Assembly: GCA_002842035.1 (NCBI GenBank) | Contig: PHBP01000010.1 | Coordinates: 1 to 42,327 of the forward strand | Reading direction: 5' to 3' | Source of the DNA: Candidatus Cloacimonetes bacterium HGW-Cloacimonetes-2 | GTDB taxonomy: Bacteria; Cloacimonadota; Cloacimonadia; Cloacimonadales; Cloacimonadaceae | Length of the DNA: 42,327 bases | Shown here: positions 5,879-42,327 of the stretch, piece by piece | Layout: every line of letters starts with the position of its first letter | Position numbering within the stretch: position 1 is the stretch's first letter | The notes under the pieces: generated by a model | What the model saw: only the letters and a program-made list of their open reading frames with translations | What the model was told of the DNA's origin: nothing | Databases searched by the model: none | Made by a program: the position numbers and the translations under genes

Positions 5879-6205
5879 AAGTGGGTTACTCTTTCTGCAA
5901 TTAGAAAGACCTAAGACTTTAGATTGTAAATGCAAAAGCTGCGATCAGATGGTGCAATAAGTGAGGCTTACTAGTGCTTTCTTTACTGTATCGACGTTGA
6001 GACTTTGCAAGTCTATCACAAAAAAGTTAGTGTCCACCAAAAAATGAATCTTGCTCCACCGGCTTTGAGCCCGCAATTGGAGATGTATAGGTCAGACGGA
6101 GTGAAGCTGTCCAATTTCTGCCCGGTTGAGGTGTGTAGGCATAGATCTCATAGCGCTTGTCCAGAATATTCATCAGCTTTAGATTCGCCTATTATTAGCT
6201 TAGTC

Positions 6206-6325
6206 CTCTCCTGCCGCACAGTCATCCCGAGATCAAGAGCAGATCAAGAGCAAATCAAGTCGAACGTGGTTCGACTTGATTTGCTCTTGAATTGCTTTTG
6301 ATATGCTCTTGACTATAGGGGGGGG
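6206..6325. repeat. Modular palindromic element, copy 1
   Basis: The core is an inverted repeat pairing 6232-6265 with 6269-6302: 34 bp around a GTG loop, with one A-A mismatch and otherwise Watson-Crick or G-T pairs. It is assembled from 11-nt modules: on the left ATCAAG-AGCAG, ATCAAG-AGCAA, ATCAAG-TCGAA; on the right the reverse complements of ATCAAG-TCGAA, TTCAAG-AGCAA, ATCAAA-AGCAA and GTCAAG-AGCAT. A CTCTCC on the left and a run of eight G on the right may be the outer ends, by comparison with copies 3 and 4. The outer limits of this copy are less sure than the core. Confidence 0.85.
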
Positions 6326-6393
6326 AAGGAGGGTGCAGCTATCCACTGCAGCAATTGTGCAGCTACTTGAAGTCTATATGTGGGAGGCAGTTC

Positions 6394-17705: not shown

Positions 17706-17863
17706 CCAGTGGATGAGTGAATAAGTGATTTGCTGCGCTGGGGGCAGGGACTGCGTCCCTTGCAGTAAGAACTTAGTCAGTTTGAACTTAGCACTGCGCA
17801 TTGTTCGAGGATTGTTTCTAACAGGCTGAAACTGTCTTAGCTGTCGTCATCCATCTGATATAC

Positions 17864-17916
17864 GTGGGTGCGTCATCCTGACGCACAGTATCTGAGCGAC
17901 AAGATGTCGCTCCTAC
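17864..17916 (+). repeat. REP/BIME-like pair of hairpins, copy A
   Basis: There are two perfect 8-bp stems with 3-base loops: GTGCGTCA TCC TGACGCAC (17868-17886) with foot GTGG on its left, and GAGCGACA AGA TGTCGCTC (17894-17912) with foot CTAC (reverse complement of GTAG) on its right. The feet point outward, as in BIMEs made of two inverted REPs. An inverted copy is at 28504-28558. REPs with GTAG-type feet are typical targets of RAYT (REP-associated tyrosine) transposases; none is encoded in the window. Confidence 0.8.
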
Positions 17917-17949
17917 CCCCCCCCCTCAGTTATTCCTGGGACTGCCAGT

Positions 17950-18082
17950 TCTTGCCCCAACACCCATAGGTTCCAAGGTATCACCAGCAGATCAAGAGCA
18001 AATCAAGAGCAATTCACCTCGAACCACGTTCGACTTGATTTGCTCTTGATCTGCTGGTGATATGCTTTAGTCAAGAAAGGAG
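17950..18082. repeat. Modular palindromic element, copy 2
   Basis: The left arm has four modules (ATCACC-AGCAG, ATCAAG-AGCAA, ATCAAG-AGCAA, TTCACC-TCGAA) and the right arm three (complements of ATCAAG-TCGAA, ATCAAG-AGCAA, ATCACC-AGCAG), around a CAC centre at 18025-18027. The outer 24 bases (17979-18002) match 18039-18062 perfectly, but only if the inner 11-nt module is looped out. The right flank keeps the full ATATGCTTTAG end. Outer limits are approximate. Confidence 0.85.
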
Positions 18083-18277
18083 AATGAGCTAAGAGCTTGT
18101 AACGTTATCAAGATGAGTCTGAGTCCCCATTGTCCATAAAAAGCTTTAGTGAAACATACTAACATGGCCTTTACACGCAATTCCATTCATAATACGGTCA
18201 CAATACTATGATGCTATTCTGCAGGTGCCACCAATTCAATAATTAAGTGAATTTCCAGCGCTCGCTTACAAATCAGC

Positions 18278-19125: not shown

Positions 19126-19163
19126 AAGATCTGTCCCAAAATGCCAAATCTGTCCCCCATATA
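19126..19163 (+). repeat. 38-bp dispersed repeat with two ATCTGTCCC boxes, copy upstream of purA
   Basis: It contains two direct ATCTGTCCC boxes about 21 bases apart and ends CCCCCATATA. A copy matching 34 of 38 positions lies on the minus strand at 38692-38655, also upstream of and in the same direction as a gene. It could be a paired operator, or the end of an insertion element. Confidence 0.65.
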
Positions 19164-19224
19164 CTAATGTAAGCACTTTCAGAAAATGCGGTTTTCTCTG
19201 TGCCGGAAGGTGGGGGAAAAAGAC

Positions 19225-28330: not shown

Positions 28331-28453
28331 CTCCCCCTGTGCTTGCCTATGGTCTAAAGCATATCACCAGCAAATCAAGTCGAAATCAAGTCGAACCACG
28401 TTCGAGGTGATTTGCTCTTGATCTCGACTTGATCTGCTGTAGATTGTGGGGAG
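28331..28453. repeat. Modular palindromic element, copy 3
   Basis: The ends are CTCCCC (28331-28336) and GGGGAG (28448-28453), 123 bp overall. Left modules, outer to inner: ATCACC-AGCAA, ATCAAG-TCGAA, ATCAAG-TCGAA. Right modules as reverse complement, outer to inner: ATCAAG-TCGAG, ATCAAG-AGCAA, ATCACC-TCGAA. The centre is TCGAAC CAC GTTCGA. The arms carry different module orders, so pairing is interrupted at 2- to 4-base steps while the 11-nt register is kept. Confidence 0.88.
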
Positions 28454-28503
28454 ATATGGAGTGGAGGAGGGAATGACGGAGTGGATGGATTTAGGTATGG
28501 GGT

Positions 28504-28558
28504 GTAGGAGCGACATCCTGTCGCTCAGATTGGCTGTGCGTCAGGATGACGCACCCAC
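28504..28558 (-). repeat. REP/BIME-like pair of hairpins, copy B
   Basis: This is an inverted copy of the pair at 17864-17916: GTAG, then GAGCGACA TCC TGTCGCTC (28508-28526), then GTGCGTCA GGA TGACGCAC (28536-28554), then CCAC. Stems are identical to copy A; only one loop and the linker differ. The two hairpin types in one pair are therefore inherited as a unit. Confidence 0.82.
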
Positions 28559-28675
28559 GATTAGTAAATGAATCAGGACAGAGAAGAAAGCGCTTAACGC
28601 AGAGGCAAGTAACGAAACAGGTTCTGTCAATTAGAAACGATCTTCAATTAAACCGCAGCGCTAAGATCTACCTGC

Positions 28676-38560: not shown

Positions 38561-38654
38561 CTTCACTCCATCATCTTTCTTAGTTTTCAAGTCCATCAGA
38601 TATCCAATTTTTGTCAATATGTAAATCCCGGTTTGATCCACCACCCTCCATTAT

Positions 38655-38692
38655 TATATGGGGGACAGATTTGCTCATTTGGGACAGATCTT
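38655..38692 (-). repeat. 38-bp dispersed repeat with two ATCTGTCCC boxes, copy upstream of the WecA-like gene
   Basis: This copy has 34 of 38 positions identical to 19126-19163, read on the minus strand. The same similarity continues as TATA(A/C)TAATG. It ends 95 bases before the WecA-like start codon, compared with 118 bases before purA for the other copy. Confidence 0.65.
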
Positions 38693-40639: not shown

Positions 40640-41395
40640 CTATTTTCTGTGTTGCTGGCGGGTTTTATAGAGCTTCTCGGTGAAGCCATCCTCTTGGGTA
40701 AATGCCTCAGCCAGAGCCCGGATCTGTCTGTCAAGCATGGCACATGCCACACCGATCAGCACCAGCGCAGCATTGGCAGCCAGTTCGGAGTATTGGGAGA
40801 TGGGTAGCTCAGGGGAGCTGGTGGCTGCTATGGGCTTAATGGACGATATGGACGATATGGACGATATGGACATTCCTGGAGTCTCTGCGCATTGTCCATT
40901 ATGTCCATCACGTCCATCTTGTCCATTCTGTCCATCAGGCAGACCCTGTCTTGCTTGACCATCCTGTGCTTTCCTTTCTCTACTCCGCAGTTCCTTCACC
41001 CACTCTGCCACTTCCTCGGCAGTCTGGCAGCGTCTTTGCAACAGTTCTTTTCTGCGGGGATCATCATCAGCCCAAAGGGCAAATCCCCGCTGCCGGAGAT
41101 AATCTTCATAATCCAGCTTGAGCTCTTCCAAGCTAGCCCTGGCAACATTGGTCAGCTTCAGTTCGGTTTTCTTGGAGGTACCGCTGGCCAGGCTGCCTTC
41201 CGCGATGTTTTGCACTCCGGATCTGGCAGCCTGAACCATCTGATCATTGGTTCTGCTATATTTGTCGATATACCGGTCGCAGAAGCGCACCGTGAGGTCA
41301 TAGACCAATTGAGCTAGCTGAAAGCTCTTGAGCTTGCGATAGCCTCCGTGTTTGGGAATTAGAATACCTGCTCCACTCTTTAATGCTGCTGCCAT
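40640..41395 (-). CDS. Four-helix-bundle (23S rRNA intervening-sequence-like) protein with low-complexity insert
   Basis: This 251-residue protein belongs to the four-helix-bundle family related to the S23 / IVP proteins. Its N-terminal 120 residues carry the conserved blocks KLKSFQLAQLVYDLTVRFCDRY, RTNDQMVQAARSGVQNIAEGS and TELKLTNVARASLEELKLDYEDYL. A low-complexity insert (about 145-190) translates 9-nt DNA repeats into GQNGQDGRDGHNGQ and SISSISSIS. The last 50 residues are helical again (NAALVLIGVACAMLDRQIRALAEAF), so the insert splits the bundle from its suffix helix. GGGAG precedes the ATG. The molecular role of the family is unknown. Confidence 0.82.
   Translation of the reverse strand: MAAALKSGAGILIPKHGGYRKLKSFQLAQLVYDLTVRFCDRYIDKYSRTNDQMVQAARSGVQNIAEGSLASGTSKKTELKLTNVARASLEELKLDYEDYLRQRGFALWADDDPRRKELLQRRCQTAEEVAEWVKELRSRERKAQDGQARQGLPDGQNGQDGRDGHNGQCAETPGMSISSISSISSIKPIAATSSPELPISQYSELAANAALVLIGVACAMLDRQIRALAEAFTQEDGFTEKLYKTRQQHRK
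40839..40937. repeat. Two inverted 9-nt repeat tracts inside the four-helix-bundle gene
   Basis: Tract 1 (40839-40873) is three and a half units of ATGGACGAT. Tract 2 (40893-40937) is five units of (T/C)GTCCATNN. ATGGAC and GTCCAT are complementary, so the tracts can pair as a hairpin with a regular 3-base interruption. Three more units (TGTCCATTA, TGTCCATAC, TGTCAATAC) lie outside the gene at 41437-41463. Confidence 0.8.
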
Positions 41396-41476
41396 CTCAT
41401 AGTTCTCCCATTGCTAGTTCTTTTGATAGTCTCAATTGTCCATTATGTCCATACTGTCAATACTAATCTACCGAGG

Positions 41477-41598
41477 CTCCCCCTGCCTGGCAGAGGTCTA
41501 AAGCATATCACCAGCAAATCAAGCCGAAATCACCTCGAACCGCGTTCGACTTGATTTGCTCTTGATCTGCTGGTGATATGCTGTTGATCAAAGGGGAG
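41477..41598. repeat. Modular palindromic element, copy 4
   Basis: The ends are CTCCCCC (41477-41483) and GGGGAG (41593-41598), 122 bp overall, the best-preserved copy. Left modules: ATCACC-AGCAA, ATCAAG-CCGAA, ATCACC-TCGAA, preceded by the cap GGTCTAAAGCAT. The centre is TCGAAC CGC GTTCGA. Right modules (reverse complement): ATCACC-AGCAG, ATCAAG-AGCAA, ATCAAG-TCGAA, ending ATATGCTGTT. Confidence 0.9.
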
Positions 41599-41687
41599 TA
41601 TCAGGAAATCCGGATGAATACCCCAGGTCGAGATCAGGCTTTTCCCTATGCTTGGTTGAGTATTTACTACAGCTTAACTATAAACCC

Positions 41688-41898
41688 TCACTGAAAACTT
41701 CAAATCCACTCACCAAAACTTCAAATCGGAGAAATCGGGGTATTGTTAGGCTATTCGGTGACTTCAGTTTTTATCACCATTTCTTCAAATATCATCACCG
41801 TTTCTTCAAATTTGATCACTGAAAACTTCAAGCTTTTATCATGCTTTCTTCAAATCGCCATCACCATATCTTCAAATCTTGATCATGGAGATTTCAGC
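41688..41898 (+). repeat. 22-bp-period direct repeat array (iteron-like)
   Basis: Units resemble TCACNNNNNCTTCAAAT. They start at 41688, 41710, 41774, 41795, 41816, 41839, 41861 and 41883. Steps are 22, 64, 21, 21, 23, 22 and 22, so even the gap equals three periods, and a degenerate half-unit (CGGTGACTTCAG) lies near 41756. A further unit, with the shared flank TATAAACCC, is at 42220-42237. About two helical turns separate units, so all boxes face the same side of the DNA. This is compatible with a protein-binding array. Confidence 0.72.
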
Positions 41899-42327
41899 AT
41901 AGTTACCGATTAAGACATAAGAAAACCACTAAGTTTTGAATAGCAAGATTGGCTTACAATTAGACTTCATTTACATTAGATTGGGGTTATCAAATGGAGA
42001 GAAGTAACTTAGTATTATTCCTGAAGCCTGGATTTGGAGAACAAAACTACATCCGAAAAGTACTTAAAGTAGTCCGGGCATCTCAAATGGCAATCCTTAA
42101 GATGCATTAGTAAGCAGAAGTATAAGACAGTAAGATTGATTCCTGTAAACTCATCAGAACCACTCAGATTGCTAAAGTACCATTTGCTGTCTTGTTTTTC
42201 GTACTCTGGGTATAAACCCTCACTGAATACTTCAAATGTCCAAGTCCAAAAGATGATGAACCAGACGATTAGGGCGTTTGAAATATGCTAATTTCTTTAA
42301 GATCATTGTATTGTATATATGGCGCAA

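Follow-up and report, generated by a model that had tools for sequence, protein, structure and literature searches.

Intergenic elements built of 11-nt units keep about 5 kb apart across unrelated sequence families in the genome of a Candidatus Cloacimonetes bacterium

What kind of element is assembled from 11-nt modules that are shuffled between its copies and even between its two arms, and what is conserved in it when its sequence is not? The question is raised by positions 28331-28453 of the window, by which we mean the whole stretch of 42,327 nucleotides analysed here (contig PHBP01000010.1 of Candidatus Cloacimonetes bacterium HGW-Cloacimonetes-2, GCA_002842035.1), which is part of contig C6 of an assembly of 2.51 Mb in 14 contigs. 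A sequence-only reading had described each arm as a chain of 11-nt units, and the modules that it gave for this copy read back exactly: the left arm is ACC-AGC, AAG-TCG, AAG-TCG and the right arm, as its reverse complement, AAG-TCG, AAG-AGC, ACC-TCG, with both inner units terminating in TCGAAC. Together with 6204-6319, 17963-18072 and 41479-41594, it makes up the four copies in the window of what we call family A (Table 1), and the sequence ATCAAGAGCA, at up to one mismatch, has 25 matches in the window against 5.6 expected from shuffling. The genes neighbouring the four copies are ordinary and have no common link among them: a subtilase with a FlgD-like domain and a solute-binding protein at copy 1, a PAP2 protein at copy 2, the repair-coupling factor Mfd, recognised by its TRCF and CarD-like domains, at copy 3, and, at copy 4, a match to a 23S rRNA-intervening-sequence protein that is weak and under its cut-off.

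Table 1. Family A elements of the window, parts of the copy under study, and array units in related genomes (positions are those of the window)
Feature	Position	Strand	Description
Family A element, copy 3 (under study)	28332..28464	.	133 bp = 65 + 3 + 65; core TCGAAC at 28391
Left arm, copy 3	28352..28396	+	four 11-nt units, TCGAAC last
Three-base centre, copy 3	28397..28399	.	CAC
Right arm, copy 3	28400..28444	-	four 11-nt units
Family A element, copy 1	6201..6333	.	aligned with genome-wide copies
Family A element, copy 2	17960..18092	.	aligned with genome-wide copies
Family A element, copy 4	41476..41608	.	aligned with genome-wide copies
Array in G012, same genus			11-nt unit GACTCTTGCAG
Array in G011, same genus			11-nt unit TCATACCGCTA
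Arrays in G010			11-nt units GTAATGAGTCC and GCTTGATTAAC
Array in G013			11-nt unit GATCCCCTCGT, relative of family B

Genome-wide, the exact core TCGAACNNNGTTCGA occurs 53 times (reversed control, 0) and a 20-base core at up to three mismatches 58 times (control, 0). Our statistics on the arms come from a gapless alignment of 53 of the 58 copies, i.e., 106 arms, and the geometry of these is fixed. All 106 have the same length, in 11-nt units with zero indels, so that slippage, which had been offered as a source of the exchange, is unsupported and the proposed check of length turned up no variation in the aligned copies. Every arm repeats TC precisely at -11, -22 and -33, save for one T at -21, with T at -11, -22 and -33 and A at -14, -25 and -36 throughout. 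TCGAA terminates each arm and is followed by the final C in 105, the claim that the innermost unit always ends in TCGAAC thus failing for a single arm. Because conservation ends near position -65 in either direction from the centre, with flanks that are unrelated between copies, the element measures about 133 bp; read inward, each strand has a border rich in pyrimidines, and the centre of the element is CAC/GTG, CGC/GCG or CGG/CCG in 51 of the 53 copies. Among the 48 copies tested, 45 are intergenic and the remaining three lie inside doubtful ORFs, and the flanking genes are convergent, tandem and divergent alike, without regard to gene direction.

Within this frame the half-unit states are truly discrete, intermediates being nearly absent. 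The innermost dinucleotide is AG in 60 arms, CC in 45 and AA in one, and never AC or CG, and the inner triplet is AGC in 72, CCG in 21 and TCG in 13. The proposed two-by-two code stands as far as the half-units are discrete, but there is a third state, CCGA, in 21 of the 106 arms, and TGG and CGG are found more rarely still. Likewise, ATCACC-AGCA(A/G) is the usual outer unit within the window but not genome-wide, where the outer dinucleotide is CC in 46 arms, AG in 47 and something else in 13. As for the free swapping of middle units, discrete states do reassort, but 101 of the 106 arms have AG as their middle dinucleotide, and the innermost dinucleotide is alike in both arms of just 12 of the 53 copies against 26.3 expected (0 of 5000 shuffles gave so low a count). 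This avoidance of like innermost states leaves free exchange between the arms of a copy unsupported. Covariation of the arms, suggested as a check, came out divided: the third dinucleotide disagrees as well (11 alike against 20.3 expected, P 0.003), whereas the inner triplet AGC/CCG/TCG agrees slightly above expectation (34 against 27.1, P 0.012).

Could such an element work as a transcribed RNA hairpin, i.e., as a terminator, a processing site or a stability element? Single family A copies fold strongly, and convergent gaps are over-represented for this family (15 of 45, against 47 of 278 of the other gaps). However, in the pairing alignment of 52 copies (the 53rd is missing from it, lying at a stretch edge), 78.2% of the cells are paired compared with a shuffled mean of 81.4%, and 500 of 500 shuffles are at least as high. 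The arms are therefore not kept complementary and differ beyond chance, which makes a conserved RNA hairpin or free slippage unlikely. Moreover, compensatory changes are absent, no T run follows the stem in family A copies, the elements occur also between divergent genes, polarity relative to gene direction is unclear in the families B (five opposite, two same) and C (four and four) that are described below, and Rfam gave zero matches in the window. We find the RNA hairpin barely credible on these grounds, and an intrinsic terminator is rejected because of the missing T run beyond the stem together with the presence between divergent genes. The A-form RNA meaning that the sequence-only reading had attached to eleven bases is unsupported because pairing is lost and all gene orientations flank the elements. 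Its idea of a constraint on period rather than on exact pairing has been borne out: lengths are fixed, states are discrete and pairing lies below the shuffles, hence period and states are constrained and pairing is not. The pattern that it had named as contrary, ordinary compensatory changes with no module classes, is not what the copies display.

A hairpin and tandem-array search outside the known copies brought to light unrelated 11-nt units in other intergenic gaps, namely those of family B (GATCCCCTAGT) and family C (GCAGGATACAA), as well as the single elements D and E with still other 11-nt units. Lag 11 gave 135 peaks in 1.378 Mb, compared with 5-13 at each of nine other lags (on C1, 31 versus 0-5; on C2, 45 versus 0-4). 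The plan of family B is fixed: CTTGT and ACAAG pair at its centre, each side carries 11-nt units, and there are pyrimidine and purine borders; family C is less symmetric, its right arm being weak and out of phase. The reversed-pattern control is invalid for family B because the unit resembles its own reversal, and the label C for C2:156356, 161346, 208522 and C1:65885 is a script default, not a sequence match. All families together amount to at least 205 elements genome-wide. Throughout families A-E and their relatives, many of the units, read inward, start with GATC, GATTC, GACTC or GAGTC (often GANTC), possibly the trace of a common ancestor or of a methylation or protein motif.

Taken together, all families form one self-spacing set, in which a mutual exclusion of about 5 kb operates across unrelated sequences. 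The 30 elements of all families on C1 leave no gap shorter than 4.4 kb, where random intergenic sites predict 11.0, and the 49 elements on C2 leave one, where they predict 14.6, short-gap counts that none of 20000 random draws equalled (the spacing lists left out C1:8094, a DnaA-box cluster, and C2:181277, 228880 and 407738, which have no family match). Neighbours from different families also stay apart, by a minimum of 5.2 kb on C1 and 3.6 kb on C2, and along the 156 kb of C1 93-249 kb, 22 elements follow one another at a mean gap of 7.4 kb with a coefficient of variation (CV) of 0.18. A strict lattice of family A alone is ruled out, for on C2 this family showed no periodicity (best power within the null, P 0.48), and evenness appears only once the families are combined.

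In a one-parameter model, real intergenic sites are filled randomly under an exclusion of about 5 kb until nothing more fits. For three regions, the yield is 21.8, 30.8 and 30.6 elements (22, 30 and 32 observed) with CVs of 0.20, 0.35 and 0.37 (0.18, 0.45 and 0.41 observed); the intergenic sites that exclusion leaves are thus filled, and the long gaps in the model are stretches with little intergenic room. For C1 as a whole, the variance is matched less closely: at 5 kb the model gives a CV of 0.35 against the observed 0.45, and no simulation was as uneven. The fit does not distinguish between selection and insertion immunity.

Different contigs are dominated by different families: A on C2, C6 and C9, B on C1, C11, C14 and C4, and C on C8, C10 and C3 (chi-square 169 on 24 d.f., p 8e-24, among the 205 elements listed). 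The gene dnaA is on contig C14, with DnaA-box-like repeats beside it. Copies of TTATCCACA, which we take to be DnaA-box-like, cluster on two contigs, at C1:8091-8136 and at C14:56150-56249, the latter beside dnaA, so that B is the family of those contigs. Replication polarity was considered and rejected, as the orientation of family A is mixed on C2 and family B on C1 uses both strands, and a pattern search of the genome for a dif site gave one 3-mismatch hit, the same number as in the control. The first 43 kb of C2 hold just one element; C2:1-40000 (L075, L076) has a GC content of 0.42 and a skew down to -0.11, versus a GC content of about 0.48 elsewhere on C2, and is perhaps a recently acquired island.

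Beyond this genome, the same plan recurs with other sequences in related species. Among 124 genomes of the phylum (own included), the family A core was found in three others with 1-3 cores each; in G006 the core-bearing stretch equals L053, and in the remaining two genomes the cores stand without arms. L053, a contig of the same species, matches the locus at C2:388 kb with 98.6% identity along 2.6 kb; its element keeps all arm units except one base and has the centre CCG instead of CAC. Gene order is heavily scrambled between genera, and this same-species locus is occupied by an element. IMG/VR contained one contig with the element, matching the C12 locus. Four genomes of the same family, examined in samples, carry 11-nt arrays with other units (Table 1), and in G012 a two-state swap between the arms, GCAGGACTC or GGCCGACTC, is seen by eye. 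Of 49 genomes of the taxonomic family, two contain B-like arrays and one contains C (own genome counted in both), from which it follows that the element sequences turn over quickly.

The separate genus represented by G013 has 27 elements (32 peaks, reduced to 27 by eye through removal of REP-like and chance rows; a regular expression kept 28), and the smallest of their 13 gaps is 6.8 kb, where 4.9 gaps below 5 kb were expected (P 0.0001). A conserved gene neighbourhood between the genera is not significant: genes adjoining G013 elements adjoin elements here in 5 of 13 cases, versus 10 of 49 other genes (P 0.16), the examples being suggestive. In four outgroups (G057, G050, G121 and G103), no lag-11 array was found at threshold 22 in small samples of 99 kb together.

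What the families share is a helical phase. Measured from the dyad, modulo 11 bp, the GC peak falls at 6.7 in A (30 copies, near-identical cores removed), 6.8 in B, 7.3 in C, 7.2 in E (two copies), 6.1 in G013, 6.7 in G012 (two copies) and 4.6 in G010 (one copy). The coherence has a P of 0.0009 over all seven families, 0.0007 for A, B, C and G012 alone and 0.013 with G010 added, values that treat the families as independent although B, E and G013 are related. The common GC phase agrees with shape-dependent wrapping; a GC-rich closing stem beside the centre could give one too.

DNA gyrase cuts with a 4-bp stagger and is conserved between species. The elements might be strong gyrase sites of the phage Mu kind, spread along the chromosome to manage supercoils: their 133 bp, two-fold layout and composition phased at about 11 bp on both flanks resemble the E. 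coli gyrase motif, which covers 130 bp with two flanks of a 10.75-bp GC period (PMC6379681). The right arm of the Mu site wraps with AT minor grooves inward (PMC11626157; also PMC12393610). Given this likeness, we measured the GC phase about the Mu cut, which is annotated in AF083977 and was placed via the cut sequence in PMC11626157. On the flanks, at period 10.75, the phase is 2.3 for Mu and 7.0-8.1 for A, B, C, G012 and G013 (10.5 on the outer flanks of E, two copies; 6.8 for G010, one copy), i.e., about half a turn apart over nearly the same flank range, and the elements therefore fail as dyad-centred gyrase sites. In addition, the centre of family A is odd, with three bases against the 4-bp stagger, and the elements are strict, species-specific sequence families that differ between species although gyrase is conserved. 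We consider gyrase sites very unlikely.

In our best explanation, to which we give about an even chance, the elements are non-coding, dispersed double-stranded DNA of about 130 bp and putative platforms of a two-fold complex that excludes a second element within about 5 kb. With several 11-bp units on either side of a two-fold centre, base composition would alternate on one face of the helix, and each element may be occupied by a complex with two-fold symmetry, a dimer or an oligomer that binds or wraps DNA and reads the phased units. This complex would itself be the cause of exclusion, either because it blocks further insertions or because it organises a neighbourhood of about 5 kb in which an additional element is lost or counter-selected, and new sequence families would arise and displace old ones by copying. 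Counting against this explanation, sequence within a family is too strict for shape alone; the phase could come from the closing stem and is drawn from few families, some of them related (B, G013 and E) and three with one or two copies; the exclusion model matches the variance on the whole of C1 less closely; and conservation of position beside particular genes between the genera is not significant. Its fuller form is possible but tentative, namely a spacing system in which a nucleoprotein complex may keep 11-bp-phased elements at least about 5 kb apart and fill nearly all free sites, the families acting as regional addresses (one of them on the dnaA contigs) and the sequence being replaced between species with the helical plan kept. 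The host would gain a chromosome divided into similarly sized units, but self-immunity in a selfish element would produce the same picture.

Indeed, a purely selfish mobile palindrome (MITE/REPIN-like), moved by a transposase, endowed with target immunity over about 5 kb, saturated and of no use to the host, is an alternative that we hold possible, if somewhat unlikely. The copies had to disperse somehow, saturation with exclusion matches the element numbers, and the families are species-specific. Known REPs can pile up within 200 kb of their own transposase gene (PMC2817692), and such accumulation would explain regional families, so that local spread could yield the regional pattern as well. 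Against this, family likeness of neighbours within contigs is at the level of shuffled labels (108 versus 111.8), exclusion crosses families of unrelated sequence, and in 52 family A copies end repeats at k = 4-9 were no different from permuted pairs, i.e., there is no target-site duplication and MITE membership by this mark is rejected, though old insertions could lose the duplication. Furthermore, the single Y1 transposase detected genome-wide, the RAYT-like Y1_Tnp at C2:456445 (C2:456285-457141, L154), sits among 12-nt TGTGGGTCCGTC arrays and not among 11-nt elements; the nearest family A copy is C2:458899, about 2.3 kb off, and the GTCCGTCA-TGACGGAC repeats may stem from this source. Membership in the REP/RAYT (REPIN) system was likewise rejected, there being no cognate RAYT among the 11-nt repeats and no GTAG/GTGG head, none being conserved in the 53 family A copies to -72 or in the profile to -206. 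Host-selected organising sites (domain boundaries, anchors or segregation sites), with spacing from selection alone and the family as a regional address, would suit the evenness over 156 kb of C1 as well as the dominance of families by contig, including B on the dnaA contig. Yet simple exclusion accounts for the spacing with no optimum, dominance may come from local spread, the pattern search yielded no dif site, and no origin-terminus axis is established because the contigs are unordered; we regard such sites as improbable.

Bacterial repeats are known to be dispersed, and REP, BIME and REPIN sequences with their RAYTs resemble our elements in being short, palindromic, intergenic, species-specific, high in copy number, dispersed and possibly regional. 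They differ in having no 11-nt unit plan; we know of no even spacing or cross-family exclusion among them, and the REP-like palindromes of this very genome are unevenly spaced on C1 and C2, unlike the 11-nt elements. Palindromes of this kind, GAGCGACATCCTGTCGCTC and TGCGTCAGGATGACGCA, lie at 17832-17921 and 28499-28590 of the window, each next to an element, and 10 of 17 on C1 and 11 of 13 on C2 are within 500 bp of one (raw counts). Plasmid R1 parC consists of iterated 11-bp repeats bound by ParR, and iteron plasmid centromeres share with our elements two sets of 11-bp direct repeats open to wrapping by a protein; here, by contrast, there are about 200 chromosomal copies, inverted arms and several families. 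The "structural code" of bacterial genomes at about 11 bp has the period in common but is a statistical signal mainly of coding DNA (PMC4132750), whereas ours are discrete intergenic elements with a fixed plan. Among open-licence PubMed Central papers, we found no described set of elements that spaces itself across unrelated families with one exclusion distance. The parts (dispersed repeats, phased DNA and target immunity) are familiar; their combination is unfamiliar. If functional, the elements would give a little-studied phylum a built-in ruler for its chromosome domains; if they are selfish, they would be a natural, genome-scale case of target immunity at saturation. Both readings give concrete predictions.

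Several other repeats were observed in the window. Arrays of 9-bp units (ATGGACGAT / TGTCCATNN) occupy 40839-40950 and 41426-41464, and TGTCCAT/ATGGACA runs like these occur near the elements of G012. Beyond the fourth element lie a 21-22 bp array, ATCACCATTTCTTCAAAT, and a 27-nt repeat pair (41762-41885 and 41679-42237). Finally, 19126-19169 and 38649-38692 form an inverted pair of 44 nt, 89% complementary and beginning with AAGATCTGTCCC, which resembles another dispersed repeat.
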